Notes under the pieces: model-generated
What the model was told of the DNA's origin: nothing
Database searches by the model: none
The model's input: only the letters and a program-made list of their open reading frames with translations
DNA from: Acidobacteriota bacterium
GTDB lineage: Bacteria > Acidobacteriota > Vicinamibacteria > Vicinamibacterales > UBA2999
DNA length: 64,000 nucleotides
NCBI GenBank assembly: GCA_016871195.1
Contig: VFZN01000006.1
Coordinates: 145,489 to 209,488, forward strand
Reading direction: 5' to 3'
Translations under genes and position numbers: made by a program
In this document: piece after piece, positions 25,798 through 32,034 of the stretch
How positions within the stretch are numbered: position 1 is the stretch's first letter
Layout of the letters: every line of letters starts with the position of its first letter

Positions 25798-27333
25798 ATG
25801 CAACTCCGTTCCCGACTGCCGATCACGCTGCTGCTGGTGACGCTGGCGCTGTCGTCTGTGGTGCTGGGCCGTCAGCCCCTCACCGAGGGTGCGGTACAAC
25901 TGCAGCTGGCGAACCTGCTGTTTGACGACACGCGCTACGCCGAGGCCCTCGACGCGTATCGCCGCGCCGCCCGTTCCACCGATGCCTTGGTGTCGATTCC
26001 CGCGCGGGTGGGCCTGGTTATCTCGGCCCTCCGCATCGGCGAGTTCCTGGAAGCCCAGCGAGAAGCGGCATCGCTGAAGCAGGCGGCCCCGCGCAACCCC
26101 GACGTGATGACGGTGCACGCCGATGCGCTGTGGGCGGCCGGCCTGTTCGACGAGGCCGAGGCCGAGTACCGCGAGGCGCTGGCCCTGCAGCCCGGCCTGT
26201 CGCGCGCCCTGCATGGGCTGGCCCGGGCCCAGGCGTCACACAACGACCTCGATACGGCCATGAATACGGCGCAGGCCGCGCTCAAGGCCAATCCGCGCGA
26301 CGCCGAAATGCATCACACCGTGGGCAGCATCTTCGAGCGGATGCGCCGCTACGAGCAGGCCGCCGCGGCCTACACCAACTACATCAACCTGTTGCCCAAC
26401 AAGGATCGCAGCGAGAAGGCGGCATGGTCACGAGCCCAGGTGCGGTTCCTGCGCTCGTTCGGCGAACGTGAGCCGCTGGCCCTCGACGACCGCCTGGCCG
26501 ACCAGTTGCACACGGTTGATTTCAAACTGGTTGACGACAAGGTGCTAGTCAGTGCCCGGGTGAACGGCGGGCGTGCGCAGGATTTCGTGCTCGACACCGG
26601 GTCGGAGCAGACCACGGTGTCCCGTCGCACGGCGTCCTCGTCGGGCGTGCGTCCGATCACCTACACCCTCAGCGCCGGCGTCGGCGAGGTAGGTCTGCGC
26701 GGGCTGCAGCTCGGACGCCTCGATTCATTTGAAATCGGGACGCTCAAGCTGACCAACGTGCCCGTCATGATCAAGGCTCCGACGCTGCGCGGGCTGCCAA
26801 AGCGCGAGACCGAGAGTTTCTCGCCGATGGCGCTGGGCCTGTCGATGATCATCGACTACCGCACGCGGAAGTTGACGATGGGCCGGCGCCTGCCGGAGGA
26901 AGCCGCCGAGATCCGGATGCCGATGCGGCACCATCGGCTGTCGATGGTGCGCGGGCTCGTGAATGACAGGCATCCGACATATTTTGTCGTCGACACTGGT
27001 GGAGAGGTCATTTCGATTTCCACCGCAACGGCCGAGGCCATCAAGGCTCAACCCTCCAGGCGCATCGGCCTGCGGGTGTACGGCACCTCCGGCTGGGACC
27101 GCGACGCGTTTCTGCTTCCGGGACAGCGGCTGCAGTTCGCCGACGCGATTGACTATCAAAACTTTGCGGTGGTTGTGCTCAACCTGCGTGCGCCGAGCGT
27201 GCTGCTGGGGTTTGAGGTCGGTGGCATCGTCGGGCATCGCTTCCTGAGCCCCTACCGCGTGGCCATGGACCTTGAGCGAAGCGAACTGCGCATGACGCGC
27301 GGTACCGGTTCCCGAGCGACGGCCAACCCCTGA
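25798..27333 (+). CDS. Exported TPR protein with two retropepsin-like aspartic protease domains
   Basis: 511 residues. A signal peptide covers about residues 1-23. Residues 30-215 form TPR-like helical repeats (for example LLFDDTRYAEALDAYRRAAR). Two retropepsin-like half-domains follow, each with a catalytic-type motif: VLDTGSEQT with D266 and VVDTGGEVI with D399. Bacterial single-chain pepsin-retropepsin-like domains of this kind are usually paired to build one active site. The protein is probably periplasmic or lipid-associated; whether it cuts peptides is not known. It begins 66 bases after the ferredoxin and converges on the large outer-membrane gene. Confidence 0.78.
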   Translation: MQLRSRLPITLLLVTLALSSVVLGRQPLTEGAVQLQLANLLFDDTRYAEALDAYRRAARSTDALVSIPARVGLVISALRIGEFLEAQREAASLKQAAPRNPDVMTVHADALWAAGLFDEAEAEYREALALQPGLSRALHGLARAQASHNDLDTAMNTAQAALKANPRDAEMHHTVGSIFERMRRYEQAAAAYTNYINLLPNKDRSEKAAWSRAQVRFLRSFGEREPLALDDRLADQLHTVDFKLVDDKVLVSARVNGGRAQDFVLDTGSEQTTVSRRTASSSGVRPITYTLSAGVGEVGLRGLQLGRLDSFEIGTLKLTNVPVMIKAPTLRGLPKRETESFSPMALGLSMIIDYRTRKLTMGRRLPEEAAEIRMPMRHHRLSMVRGLVNDRHPTYFVVDTGGEVISISTATAEAIKAQPSRRIGLRVYGTSGWDRDAFLLPGQRLQFADAIDYQNFAVVVLNLRAPSVLLGFEVGGIVGHRFLSPYRVAMDLERSELRMTRGTGSRATANP

Positions 27334-27425: not shown

Positions 27426-30400
27426 CTAGAAGTCGAACCCGACCCACAACTGGAAGCGTGAGCGGCGGAACTCTCGGCTGCCTCCGATGGCGGCGTAGGC
27501 GACGTCTTCCCACAGGGGATTCATCAGCGTGCGGAACGTCCAGTCGAAGTGCACCGGGAAGCCGAGTGCGAAGCTCATCAGGCCGAACCCGTACGACCCG
27601 CGGCCGTCTCGGAGGCGGAACCCTGACACGGGCACCGCCGGGCCGTAGATCGGCTGGCCGAGATTGTTGTAGCCGAGCACCGGGGATTCAATCGTGGTGT
27701 CGCGGGTGAAGACCCGGAAGGGCTGATTGGCGGTGCGCCACCGCGCCGCACCGAGGTTGGCAAAGAGCGTGGCACGCACGCCTCCCAGAATTCCGATGGG
27801 GGTGGCCATGGCGTTGATGAGCGGCAGGCGCAGCTCGGCGTTCACGAAGAAGGCGTCCTGCCCCGAGAACTCGAGGAAGTTGTAGCCGCGCAGTTCGTTG
27901 TTGCCGCCGAAGAAGGTGAAGCCGGGGTTGTTGCCCCAGCTGGTGAAGCCACGGCCGCGCACGGCGAGCAGCGCTGTGCCTGCCAGACGGAAGTACTTGC
28001 GCACGTCGACATCGACCGTCTGACGTGTCAGCGTGTTGCCGATCTTGGGCGCAATTTCATACGCCACACGCATCGTGCTGCCGGTCAGGGGGCCGAACTC
28101 GCGGAAAATCGTAGTCTCCTGAATAAACGCCGCTCCAATGGGAATCATGAAGCCGTTGTTGAACAGCTGGCGGCCGAACTGGTCCACCTGGTACTGCTGG
28201 GAGTATTCCTGCAGTCCAGGATCGGCAAATCGCTCGTTGAAGTAGTTCACCCCCCCGTACAGCTCGATGCGCCGGTAGCGGTTGAACGGATAGATGGCAT
28301 ACGCCGTGCCGCCGTTCGTGGTGCGGGTGGCGACTGCCAGGTCGCGATCGATGATGCCGCTGAGCATCGGGTCGAAGAAGACGTTCTGCAGCTGCCCGAA
28401 AAAGAACTGGGTCTGCGAGTAACCCTGTGCCGCCAGATTGAGCCGGCGCTCGAGATTGATCCACATGCCCTGAATGGTTCGGTACTGGGCGATGGACGAG
28501 GCAAACAGGGTGAACTGCTGGTCGCCCAGCACATCGGTGAAGGCGATCTGCGTGCCGCCGAACACGTCACCGCCGCTGGTGATGCCGACGCCGACGGGAG
28601 GGCGGCCCTCGAGGAACATCTTCTCGAAGCGGCCTTTCCGCTTGGCATTGTCCTGCACGAAGCTGTGCGTGAGCGGCGCCTGGAAGTCGACGACGGGGCC
28701 AGGGGCACCGAAGTCTTCCGACGGGACCGTCGTGATTTCGTTCTTGAGGTCAATAACGTGCAGGCCATAGTCACCCTTGAGGTAGGTGACGAAGGCGACG
28801 CGCTGATTTGTCCCGTCCTTGAGGATGACCGGCGACAGGTTGCCGGCCAGCGTGTCGGTGTACTGCTTGAGCTCGTTGGTGGTGAGGTTCAGCGTCCACA
28901 GGTTGAAGATCTGTCCGTTGCGTGCCACTTCGGGGTCGATGGCATCGGCCGGGTTCACGGCGGTCGACGAGAAGATCAGGGTGTTGCTGTCCCAGTACTG
29001 CGCCCCGCCCTCGTCATGGGTGCCGAAGGTGATCTGCTGCGGGTTTGAACCGTCGGCATTCATCCGAAAGAGTTTGTCGTTGCCGCTGATCCGCACGAGA
29101 TAGACGATGTGCTTACCGTCAGGCGACCAGGTGGGAGCATAGTGCGGCAGCGGGTCTTTGCCGAGCGGCTTCACCTCCCGTGACTCGAGGTCGACGAGGT
29201 AGATGTTCGCGTCGGAGCCTTCCATGGCGGAAAACGCAATCTTCGTCCCGTCGGGCGAGAAGTCGGGTGATTCGGGCGCGTCGAGCTTCAGCGGAATGCG
29301 CACCACGACCTTGCGCGTGACGACGTCCTGAACAATCAGCGACCGGTCCTTCTCGGTGCGCACGAAGTAGGCGAGGCGATCGCCCTGCGGCGACCAGGTC
29401 ATCCAGGGGACCGAATTCCATCGGCCGCCGGGGGTGGCCAGGTACTCGAAGCCCATCGACTGGTCGAATCCGCGGGTCAGGTTGCGCACCACCGCGCCGT
29501 CTTTCGAGGAGAGCAGCACGATGTCGAGTTCGCGATCGGCACCGTTGCCGGTCATGGCGGCGATGAGATCGCCCGAGGGTGAGGGTTCGATCGACAGCAC
29601 ATTCGAGTAGAAGGTCTTCCGCGGATCGGGCGCCAGGTCGCGACCGTAATCGACGGGGCGTTCCTTGTCGCGGAACGGCTTGAACCGCTCCTTCATGTAG
29701 CGGTCGAACTGCTGGTCGAATTCGGTCGCGTCCAGCTGGAACGCTTCCGAGTAGGCATCGTCGCTGCCCCCGATGACGCTGCGGCGCAGGGCGAAGACAT
29801 AGGCCCGGACGCCTTCCTTGCCCCAGCGCGATTCCATGAACTCGAAAGCGGCGTGGCCCAGGTTGTAGATGAGGCGGGGGTTGCTGAAGCCGCCGTAGTC
29901 CTGCATCTCGCTCATCTTCGGGACGATGTCCGACACGGCGGCGTCGCGGACGGTCATGAGGTCGAGCGGACGCCAGTATCCGGTCATGTAGTCGGACATG
30001 CCTTCCATGACCCACAGGGGCATGTTCCGCCGGATGAGACCGGTGGGAATGATGTCGAACTGGAAGATGTGGGTGAGTTCGTGCGTGACGAGCCGATAGA
30101 GCAGGTCGGAGGGCTCGTCGATCGGCATCAGGATGCGGCTGCGGCTGGGTTCGGCGAAGGCCCCGACCCCTTCCTGTGCGGCTCCGGGGATGACGTTCTG
30201 CTGCCAGAACTCGGCGCTGGTGGAGAAGAGAATGAGCGGGACCTTGAAGGCCAGGTCGTGCTTGAGCTCGGAACTGACGTGCTGATAGGCGCTTTCGGCA
30301 TAGCCGGCGATGCGCTCGACGTGCGGCTCGACCTCGGGGTAATAGTAGAGCTCGAAGTGGTCCGTCTGGTAGATGTGCCACTCGAACCGGTCGTACCGGA

Positions 30401-30497
30401 TGGCATTCTTCCCGTAGTAGGGAACCATCCCCATCTGCGCCTGGGCAGACGAGGCCGCCGTCAGAATCGCCAGCAGGGTCAGGCTGATGAGCCGCAT
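27426..30497 (-). CDS. Outer-membrane fusion: zinc metalloprotease, TolB-like propeller, beta-barrel
   Basis: 1023 residues. A signal peptide (1-20, ASSAQA) is followed by a gluzincin-type metallopeptidase with H139-E-L-T-H143 and a third ligand candidate E165 in LWVMEGMSDY. Residues about 310-640 hold repeated WD40/PD40 strands of a TolB-type propeller (for example PDFSPDGTKIAFSA, PTWSPDGKHIVYL). The last 350 residues look like a surface-antigen beta-barrel and end in an aromatic residue (WVGFDF), the usual outer-membrane insertion signal. The ATG at 30497 has AGGAG eight bases upstream; the frame is open further upstream by chance. The protease probably faces the periplasm or surface; its substrate is unknown. 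Confidence 0.82.
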   Translation of the reverse strand: MRLISLTLLAILTAASSAQAQMGMVPYYGKNAIRYDRFEWHIYQTDHFELYYYPEVEPHVERIAGYAESAYQHVSSELKHDLAFKVPLILFSTSAEFWQQNVIPGAAQEGVGAFAEPSRSRILMPIDEPSDLLYRLVTHELTHIFQFDIIPTGLIRRNMPLWVMEGMSDYMTGYWRPLDLMTVRDAAVSDIVPKMSEMQDYGGFSNPRLIYNLGHAAFEFMESRWGKEGVRAYVFALRRSVIGGSDDAYSEAFQLDATEFDQQFDRYMKERFKPFRDKERPVDYGRDLAPDPRKTFYSNVLSIEPSPSGDLIAAMTGNGADRELDIVLLSSKDGAVVRNLTRGFDQSMGFEYLATPGGRWNSVPWMTWSPQGDRLAYFVRTEKDRSLIVQDVVTRKVVVRIPLKLDAPESPDFSPDGTKIAFSAMEGSDANIYLVDLESREVKPLGKDPLPHYAPTWSPDGKHIVYLVRISGNDKLFRMNADGSNPQQITFGTHDEGGAQYWDSNTLIFSSTAVNPADAIDPEVARNGQIFNLWTLNLTTNELKQYTDTLAGNLSPVILKDGTNQRVAFVTYLKGDYGLHVIDLKNEITTVPSEDFGAPGPVVDFQAPLTHSFVQDNAKRKGRFEKMFLEGRPPVGVGITSGGDVFGGTQIAFTDVLGDQQFTLFASSIAQYRTIQGMWINLERRLNLAAQGYSQTQFFFGQLQNVFFDPMLSGIIDRDLAVATRTTNGGTAYAIYPFNRYRRIELYGGVNYFNERFADPGLQEYSQQYQVDQFGRQLFNNGFMIPIGAAFIQETTIFREFGPLTGSTMRVAYEIAPKIGNTLTRQTVDVDVRKYFRLAGTALLAVRGRGFTSWGNNPGFTFFGGNNELRGYNFLEFSGQDAFFVNAELRLPLINAMATPIGILGGVRATLFANLGAARWRTANQPFRVFTRDTTIESPVLGYNNLGQPIYGPAVPVSGFRLRDGRGSYGFGLMSFALGFPVHFDWTFRTLMNPLWEDVAYAAIGGSREFRRSRFQLWVGFDF

Positions 30498-30601
30498 CGC
30501 TGTTTCTCCTGTGTGCATCTTACAGTGAGGACCATCGGGAGCCATGAAACGGTCCCTGAATAGCACAACAGCAGCAAGATCCGATCCGCGGGGCGATGTC
30601 C

Positions 30602-30607
30602 TATACT
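30602..30607 (+). promoter_or_regulatory. -10-like element before the ECF sigma gene
   Basis: TATACT lies 40 bases before the ATG at 30648. No good -35 is seen at 17 bases and no obvious sigma-specific motif. Confidence 0.35.
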
Positions 30608-30647
30608 TGAGACGCGCGACAGGGCGCTGACGCTTCTTTCCTCTCCC

Positions 30648-31223
30648 ATGCCGTTTGGTCGCTGGCGGTCGTCTCCGCCTCCTCCGGATGCTGACAGTTT
30701 CACGGCCGATGCGCTCGACCACCTCGACGCCCTGTACGGCACCGCCCTGCGGCTGACCCGTCGGCCCGAGGACGCTCAGGACCTGGTGCAGGACACCTAT
30801 CTGAAGGCCTTTCGGGCGAGGGCGCGGTTCACGGCCGGCACCAACCTTCGGGCGTGGCTCTACACCATCCTGCACAACACATGGCGCAACCGGCGGCGTG
30901 ATCAGAGCCGATCGAGGGTCGAGGCCGATTCCGAGGTGGTGGAGATTGCCGCCGAGCGGGGCGACACAGGCGGGCTTCCGGCCCCCACTCCGGAAGACCT
31001 GCTGCTGCGAGAGGCCATGAGCGACGACCTGCGGGTGGCCCTCGACGGGCTGCCCGAGGCCTTCCGTGAGGTGGTCTGGTTGCGGGACGTGGACGACTTG
31101 AGCTATCAGGATATTGCGACCGTCCTGTCGGTGCCGATGGGGACGGTGATGTCGAGGCTGGCGCGGGGCCGTCGGCAGCTGCACGCCGGGGTGCTGGCGG
31201 CGCGGCGTGCAACCCCGTCATGA
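30648..31223 (+). CDS. RNA polymerase ECF sigma factor
   Basis: 191 residues with region 2 (LDALYGTALRLTRRPEDAQDLVQDTYLKAF split over about 28-62, including the core-binding DLVQDTYLKAF) and region 4 with its helix-turn-helix (DDLSYQDIATVLSVPMGTVMSRLARGRR split over about 146-173). It lacks region 3, as ECF factors do. It should direct polymerase to a small regulon when released from its anti-sigma factor, which is encoded 28 bases downstream. The ATG at 30648 lies in a C/T-rich context with no clear ribosome site. Target genes may include the lipid genes downstream, but this is inference. Confidence 0.93.
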   Translation: MPFGRWRSSPPPPDADSFTADALDHLDALYGTALRLTRRPEDAQDLVQDTYLKAFRARARFTAGTNLRAWLYTILHNTWRNRRRDQSRSRVEADSEVVEIAAERGDTGGLPAPTPEDLLLREAMSDDLRVALDGLPEAFREVVWLRDVDDLSYQDIATVLSVPMGTVMSRLARGRRQLHAGVLAARRATPS

Positions 31224-31251
31224 TTTTGGCGTCATAAGGACGCGGAATCGT

Positions 31252-32034
31252 ATGCGTATAAACACTGAGTGCGACCGTTTTGACGAGCTGCTGGCGCTGG
31301 AAGCCGAACACGGCGATGGCGCGGTCGTCGACCCGGCACTGCATCGCCATCTGGCCGGATGCCCGGCCTGCGAGGCGGCCGTGGCGGCCCAGCGCGCCGT
31401 TCGCAAACGGCTGGTGACTCATCGCCGGGCCTTGCAGATCACGGCCCCGCCCGGTGTCAGAACGCGCATCGCGGCCAAACTGGCCGGCGAGGCCCATGCC
31501 GAAGCGGGAGCGTCGATGGCCACGGGCTGGGGCCTGCGGCTGTCGCCGCTCGCGGCTGCCGCCGCGCTGATGCTGGTCATCACGGTCGGGGTGCTGCCGA
31601 TGGTGACCGGGCAGTCGTCTGTGGTGTTGGCGGCGCAGTTGGCGCTCGACCACGTGAAGTGCTTCCTCATCGATGGCGATGTGCACGCCACCCCCATTTC
31701 CGCGGCAGACGCCGAGGCCACGATGCGCAAGCAGCATGGTTGGTCGGTGCCGGTGTCTGCTACGGGCGGCGTCGACGACGGCCACCTCGTGGCCGTGCGC
31801 GAGTGCCTCTACAGCGAGGGCATGGCGGCCCACCTGCTCTATCGCGTCGGCGAGACGCCGGTGTCACTCTTCGTGATGCCCGACACCGACCATGCCGTCG
31901 CTTCGGTCTCGATTCTGGCGTCAGATACAGTGTCGTGGCACCAGAACGGACGCACGCACATGCTGGTTGGGCCCGCCGGGTCGCGCGCGACGCTCGACTC
32001 AATGGCCCGCCACCTGCAACTTGAGGCAAGATAG
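31252..32034 (+). CDS. Zinc-finger anti-sigma factor, membrane anchored
   Basis: 260 residues. The N-terminal zinc motif is H33-L-A-G-C37-P-A-C40 (HxxxCxxC), typical of zinc-binding anti-sigma domains; one transmembrane helix follows (about 98-116), then a periplasmic domain of about 140 residues with conserved-looking cysteines in VKCFL and RECLY. Such proteins hold an ECF sigma factor at the inner membrane until a signal arrives; the HxxxCxxC type often senses oxidative or thiol stress. The ATG at 31252 is preceded by AAGGA. It lies 28 bases after the sigma gene and 4 bases before the TlpA gene. Confidence 0.85.
   Translation: MRINTECDRFDELLALEAEHGDGAVVDPALHRHLAGCPACEAAVAAQRAVRKRLVTHRRALQITAPPGVRTRIAAKLAGEAHAEAGASMATGWGLRLSPLAAAAALMLVITVGVLPMVTGQSSVVLAAQLALDHVKCFLIDGDVHATPISAADAEATMRKQHGWSVPVSATGGVDDGHLVAVRECLYSEGMAAHLLYRVGETPVSLFVMPDTDHAVASVSILASDTVSWHQNGRTHMLVGPAGSRATLDSMARHLQLEAR

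Follow-up and report, generated by a model that had tools for sequence, protein, structure and literature searches.

A zinc peptidase, a TolB-type propeller and an Omp85-type barrel predicted in one chain of Acidobacteriota, with two co-inherited genes

The protease-Omp85 gene and its domains

We analysed 64,000 nucleotides (nt) of DNA from Acidobacteriota bacterium GCA_016871195.1 (contig VFZN01000006.1, positions 145,489-209,488 of the forward strand), a stretch that we call the window. On its reverse strand, an open reading frame (ORF) at 27426-30497 runs from ATG to stop and encodes 1023 amino acids (aa), the last of which is Phe. Judged from sequence and structure models, this single chain is composed of a signal peptide, a gluzincin-type catalytic domain, a TolB-type beta-propeller and a BamA-type barrel without recognisable POTRA domain. 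We refer to it as protease-Omp85, and the window genome carries a single full-length copy. Its features are the following:

27426..30497, reverse strand: whole gene, peptidase, TolB propeller and Omp85 barrel, 1023 aa plus stop (sequence, Pfam, model and fold comparison)
30438..30497, reverse strand: signal peptide, residues 1-20, ending near A20 (by eye; relatives have hydrophobic leaders of varying length)
29610..30428, reverse strand: gluzincin-type zinc peptidase domain, residues 24-296 (AlphaFold2 (AF2) model and fold matches)
30069..30083, reverse strand: HELTH, residues 139-143, predicted two zinc ligands and catalytic Glu (conservation in the alignment)
30003..30005, reverse strand: E165, predicted third zinc ligand, within PLWVMEGMSDY (conservation in the alignment)
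28743..29609, reverse strand: TolB-type beta-propeller, residues about 297-585 (PF07676, TIGR02800 and fold match)
27429..28601, reverse strand: 16-stranded Omp85/BamA-type barrel, residues about 633-1023, with terminal Phe (fold match, hhalign and PF01103 matches of siblings)
27882..27893, reverse strand: LRGY, residues 869-872, equivalent of the Omp85 loop-6 VRGF/Y (alignment)

A preliminary description of this locus had proposed a one-chain fusion of three units at 27426-30497 and had singled out the fused order of these known units for study. The ORF is exact and each of the three domains is supported independently, by sequence and model. Each unit is indeed known, but their fusion in this order is no isolated case: we searched 396 Acidobacteriota genomes with our alignment model (threshold E <= 1e-20) and found matches in 194 of them. 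Because so many genomes match and 24 sequences, with that of the window among them, can be aligned over their whole length, we rejected a chance fusion or a frameshift artefact. The listed genomes include the window's own and those of its family, order or class, and of these 46 the model matches 45 (182 non-matching genomes are unlisted). Nineteen of the 194 matches are weak (E > 1e-80, picked by eye) and could be fragments or be missing a domain. Reference genomes hold 29 loci, mostly of Acidobacteria or Vicinamibacterales, with 54-92% identity in the best segment. A Salinibacter ruber plasmid carries a homologue (L072:4908-6809), annotated as 'basic secretory protein-like protein', that has peptidase and propeller with no barrel, so these two domains can exist free.

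The full-length structure model is moderate, with a predicted local distance difference test score (pLDDT) of 64 and a predicted template modelling score (pTM) of 0.38. In the Pfam scan of the window protein only PD40 repeats exceeded the cut-off (PF07676, 2e-12), and neither Omp85 nor POTRA families matched at E <= 1.

For the N-terminal domain, a gluzincin site had been proposed at HELTH, with H139, E140, H143 and likely E165, and the positions proved right. As a HExxH turns up in 35 of 5000 shuffles of the window protein, the motif alone is no proof. We rejected a chance origin because the site is conserved in every relative that covers it: 79 of 80 alignment rows share H139, E140, H143, E165 and G166 without change, the remaining row being gapped there (the rows are the query, 29 reference-genome loci, 30 loci from the 396-genome search and a further 20, near-duplicates included). 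Twenty-one residues lie between H143 and E165. When residues 24-300 were modelled alone (AF2, 29 sequences), pLDDT was 75 and pTM 0.77, and the model was closest to the peptidase domain of a bacterial collagenase (Z 16.1, root-mean-square deviation (rmsd) 3.9, 233 residues aligned), followed by lugdulysin of family M30 (Z 14.8, rmsd 4.1, 228 aligned) and M1 aminopeptidases (Z about 12-13). The window protein thus has, by sequence and model, what defines a gluzincin (MA(E)), that is HEXXH with a downstream Glu in a gluzincin fold. Sequence profiles are fainter: Peptidase_MA_2 (PF13485) falls below cut-off on the window protein (E 0.035) and is found at E <= 0.1 in 15 of 24 members (best 1.1e-5), Peptidase_M9 gives weak matches in 3 of 24 (best 0.013), and a search of the domain profile against solved structures found none (best E 0.26).

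We also compared the three domains across 20 divergent loci, chosen among the 194 so that scores were well spread, whose proteins are 29-46% identical to the window protein. The peptidase is the best conserved domain in all 20 (33-53%, against 26-39% for the propeller and 24-48% for the barrel), and catalysis is therefore probably central to the role of the protein.

The middle unit, previously called a PD40 propeller, can be sharpened to TolB type. TolB fits residues 308-585 of the model with Z 22.9, rmsd 2.6 and 21% identity over 241 aligned residues, and TolB propellers are also the nearest solved structures to the window protein by sequence. While the propeller fold is shared with TolB of the Tol-Pal system, the window chain differs from TolB in its additional peptidase and barrel, in the absence of a TolB_N (PF04052) match at E <= 1 in the Pfam scan, and in its score against TIGR02800 (8.3e-24), which at 84.3 bits is far below the equivalog cut-off of 343.15.

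The C-terminal barrel with terminal Phe, as it had been described, is by sequence and model a member of the Omp85/BamA superfamily. In PMC4104836 a barrel of Omp85 type is the defining feature of this superfamily. The fold matches listed are BamA, TamA and Sam50, and among them the BamA and Sam50 chains fit about residues 607-1023 with Z about 20-22. In hhalign, the family barrel matched 27 acidobacterial BamA-type barrels at 98.7% (E 2e-16, 340 columns), and the LRGY of the window protein lined up with SVRGFD of an acidobacterial BamA-type barrel. We take this LRGY to be the loop-6 (V/L)RG(F/Y) motif of Omp85 proteins; R870 is kept in 77 of 78 ungapped rows and G871 in 72 of 78. Sixteen strands were counted by eye in the DSSP string of the full-length model, and with strand count, fold matches and hhalign in agreement the barrel prediction is unbroken. 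PF01103 does not match the window protein at E <= 1; the four PF01103 matches of the window genome lie in other genes. Five sibling genes in a sample of 25 genomes (G116, G088, G054, G134 and G028) pass the PF01103 cut-off, and 13 of 24 family members match NF047779 (Omp85_fam) at E <= 0.01.

From the end of the propeller at about residue 585 to the start of the barrel at about 633 there are only about 48 residues, and a POTRA domain needs more room than that. A self-processing device of the two-partner secretion type, as the preliminary description had considered, was dropped as the main reading because there is no POTRA match at E <= 1, the linker is this short and the barrel is of the BamA/Sam50 type, with matches to BamA, TamA and Sam50. 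As to a TpsA partner, the neighbours were compared and clustered, but no search aimed at TpsA was made.

A cassette of three co-inherited genes

On sequence evidence, protease-Omp85 is co-inherited in many Acidobacteriota with a short TPR gene and a gene for a protein of about 220 aa (the ~220-aa partner). In all 20 divergent loci the order is the TPR gene, then the ~220-aa gene, then protease-Omp85; 7 of the 20 loci supplied the TPR model and so match it by construction. The gap between partner and protease genes was measured in 16 loci and is at most 26 nt in 14 of them, the other two having 134 and 153 nt. In L073, L074, L083 and L089 the coordinates place the ~220-aa gene next to protease-Omp85 on the same strand. 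A hydrophobic leader ending in Cys, as in lipoproteins, is seen by eye in many of the ~220-aa partners and in many of the TPR proteins inspected. At L091:7786-8838 (reverse strand), upstream of protease-Omp85, the TPR and ~220-aa proteins form one chain.

In the window genome, the TPR/~220-aa pair lies on another contig, beside topA. We examined the surroundings of the pair in 20 of the 41 other partner-bearing genomes of the window's order and found, with the window genome included, that 21 of 21 loci have the TPR gene ahead of the partner and topA close by, and that protease-Omp85 is absent from the surrounding stretch in all 21. Of the 20 divergent loci, 8 likewise have topA near the complete cassette. 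The simplest history suggested by these sequences would be one ancestral cassette near topA, from which protease-Omp85 moved away in the window's order. Other flanks of the cassette are, by eye, dprA, dnaA and dnaN.

Furthermore, the two genes occur together across the phylum. With a partner threshold of E <= 1e-6, 171 of the 396 genomes have both the ~220-aa gene and protease-Omp85, 23 have protease-Omp85 only, 3 have the partner only and 199 have neither (Fisher p = 1.6e-81, not readable as a probability since the genomes are related). Leaving out the 19 weak protease-Omp85 matches, 168 of 175 genomes also have the partner. Five of the seven strong matches without it belong to one family, f16 (G004, G020, G047, G240 and G375), and in G004 (L090) a faint partner match of 14 bits lies at the expected place. 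Conversely, G277, of the window's order, has the partner and no protease-Omp85 match. Since the pair is present even where it is unlinked, we argue for a shared function.

The ~220-aa partner is perhaps similar to the first domain (D1) of TolB. A Pfam scan of 8 members gave weak hints, with FlgT_M in 3 of 8 (best 2.9e-4), and hhalign against acidobacterial TolB_N gave a collinear but weak match (20.6%, below usual thresholds). We found no NCBIfam match of note (best 0.062) and none for its profile among solved structures (best 0.26).

Possible function and alternatives

A literature search, covering titles and the starts of abstracts, found no published description of a gluzincin-propeller-Omp85 protein or of the cassette. 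As far as such searches go, a peptidase on a WD40-Omp85-type protein and its co-inherited pair have not been described before. We take PF00149 to be a metallophosphoesterase family. It is to PF00149 that the 'Metallo' subfamily of Omp85 proteins, called a metalloprotease, is assigned in PMC4104836; the window protein likewise has an N-terminal metal-dependent enzyme on an Omp85 barrel, but its domain is of the HEXXH plus Glu kind. The label 'metalloprotease' beside PF00149 in that source may be a slip. Closer in domain order is the WD40-Omp85 subfamily (Heinz & Lithgow 2014, PMC4104836), in which a TolB-like propeller stands before an Omp85 barrel and which was likened to a BamA-BamB fusion; the window protein has the same propeller N-terminal to the barrel and no POTRA, but differs from the subfamily as described in the peptidase before the propeller and in the partner genes (the domain tables of that paper may list it). 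Our literature search found the term 'WD40-Omp85' in that paper only (PMC4104836), and PMC11116518 describes the Omp85 subfamilies that carry enzyme or WD40-like domains at the N-terminus as not well characterised. PlpD, or patatin-like Omp85, also has an enzyme fused to a 16-stranded Omp85 barrel, with a patatin-like domain and one POTRA where the window protein has a zinc peptidase and a propeller and no POTRA was found (PMC11116518). BepA is a zinc metallopeptidase that acts at outer-membrane protein assembly with the beta-barrel assembly machinery (BAM), a role that we only propose for the window protein; it belongs to M48 and has no barrel fusion, whereas in the window protein a different gluzincin is joined to propeller and barrel and the TPR is encoded by another gene (PMC7950410, PMC8423444, PMC13067283).

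From sequence, models and analogy, we give a probability of about 0.5 to the reading that protease-Omp85 is a periplasm-facing, membrane-anchored protease that works with its two partners in assembling, processing or clearing outer-membrane proteins. The barrel would sit in the outer membrane, with peptidase and propeller hanging in the periplasm below it in place of POTRA domains. This placement is by analogy with PlpD, an Omp85-enzyme fusion of tested topology whose N-terminal enzyme domain is periplasmic (PMC11116518). The propeller would dock clients or partners, the TPR and ~220-aa proteins would join protease-Omp85, and the zinc site would cut proteins of the outer membrane or periplasm during their insertion or maturation or when they have stalled. 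Under this scheme, the cassette would join the jobs of BamA (barrel), BamB (propeller), BamD (the TPR lipoprotein of BAM) and BepA (a metalloprotease that carries a TPR domain). The window genome has TolB (TolB_N found), ORFs that look by eye like Pal and CpoB, and the four PF01103 matches, so the cassette would add to Tol-Pal and BAM with no replacement, working beside them in accessory assembly, processing or quality control.

Protease-Omp85 and its partners look like part of an undescribed machine that builds or polices the outer membrane. More tentatively, the TPR protein, the TolB-D1/FlgT_M-like ~220-aa protein and the peptidase-propeller-Omp85 protein may assemble into a single complex for the insertion, maturation or degradation of outer-membrane proteins, in which an insertase-type barrel carries its own protease. 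If so, the Omp85 barrel would do more than anchor the protein passively and would take an active part in proteolytic quality control, and, were the barrel to function as an insertase, insertion and proteolysis would be coupled within one polypeptide. The conserved catalytic domain and the two co-inherited genes turn a name from a domain survey into a candidate complex with predicted activity and partners, and Acidobacteriota would be the phylum in which to study it.

Several observations weigh against this role in outer-membrane protein assembly and clearance. No client is indicated by the context, where the flanks are topA and, by eye, dprA, dnaA and dnaN, and the cassette does not stay together in the window's order, where protease-Omp85 has a sigma/anti-sigma pair and an aspartyl protease as neighbours. 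The relative placement of the domains is not to be trusted, as pTM is 0.38 for the full-length model. The p value for co-occurrence is inflated because related genomes are not independent, and 23 of the 194 genomes lack a partner match, 16 of these 23 being weak protease-Omp85 matches.

The main rival is a link to Tol-Pal or the cell wall, in which propeller and partners would bind Pal, peptidoglycan or wall synthases in the manner of Tol-Pal or Lpo/CpoB, with the peptidase trimming an envelope protein during division or remodelling. LpoP and CpoB are TPR proteins and LpoB is like the N-terminal domain of TolB, and they regulate wall synthases (PMC7267771). The propeller nearest to TolB, the weak likeness of the ~220-aa partner to FlgT_M and TolB_N, and cassette flanks that include topA and, by eye, dprA, dnaA and dnaN all fit such coordination. 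However, a TolB with Pal- and CpoB-like neighbours is already present in the window genome, the similarity of the partner to TolB_N is under the usual thresholds and a TolB propeller fold tells little about its ligand, and we regard this rival as rather unlikely. Collagenases and lugdulysin, to which the peptidase fold is nearest, are secreted enzymes, which would suit a protease delivered to the surface, the Omp85 barrel carrying peptidase and propeller outside to digest or be released, as in the older type Vd model; the barrel-less homologue of Salinibacter points the same way. TpsB-type Omp85 barrels do export proteins (PMC11116518), but peptidase and propeller, about 560 residues together, would need to cross the barrel, and TolB is periplasmic (PMC4104836). 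The enzyme domain of PlpD, being periplasmic (PMC11116518), likewise weakens the surface-anchored protease of the preliminary description, and we find surface delivery improbable.

Omp85 barrel and peptidase share one chain, and in the window's order an aspartyl protease gene is convergent, so one could also picture a dedicated secretion or maturation channel, with the barrel exporting a particular substrate and the peptidase trimming it beforehand or on the way out. In neighbour clusters 1, 3, 5 and 6 of the divergent loci we recognised no large exported substrate that is conserved, nor is there a POTRA match (Pfam, E <= 1), and such a channel seems very improbable.

Neighbouring genes in the window's order

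Three neighbours of protease-Omp85 in the window recur in related loci:

30648..31223, forward strand: extracytoplasmic function (ECF) sigma factor, divergent neighbour (Pfam Sigma70_r2 and r4_2)
31207..32034, forward strand: probable anti-sigma factor, divergent neighbour (HxxxCxxC and one hydrophobic segment, by eye)
25798..27333, forward strand: TPR and retropepsin-like aspartyl protease, convergent neighbour with a signal-peptide-like start (Pfam Asp_protease_2 and TPR)

The ECF sigma gene lies upstream in 15 of the 25 related loci that have enough upstream sequence, and the probable anti-sigma gene in 12 of 25; the latter scores 32.2 bits against DUF3379, just under the cut-off of 33.2, and zf-HC2 is weak. 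The TPR-aspartyl-protease gene is convergent in 22 of the 29 reference-genome loci, several of the remainder being too short. None of 13 window neighbours has a match at 1e-5 in the 20 divergent loci.

We found GGAAT-N17-21-GTT, which we take to be a SigR-like motif, upstream in 9 of the 25 loci (0.3 expected) pointing toward the sigma gene and in 1 of 25 pointing toward protease-Omp85; a further scan reported none for the window itself. As the motif points toward the sigma gene, self-regulation of that gene is likelier than control of protease-Omp85, which suggests, from sequence, that the sigma gene controls itself. Between protease-Omp85 and the sigma gene (30498-30647) there is also a block of about 45 base pairs, with the window form cgcgtctcaagtataggacatcgccccgcggatcggatcttgct in gene direction, that shows strong conservation across the 12 closely related loci aligned, the window included (L009-L013, L018, L031-L034 and L037).

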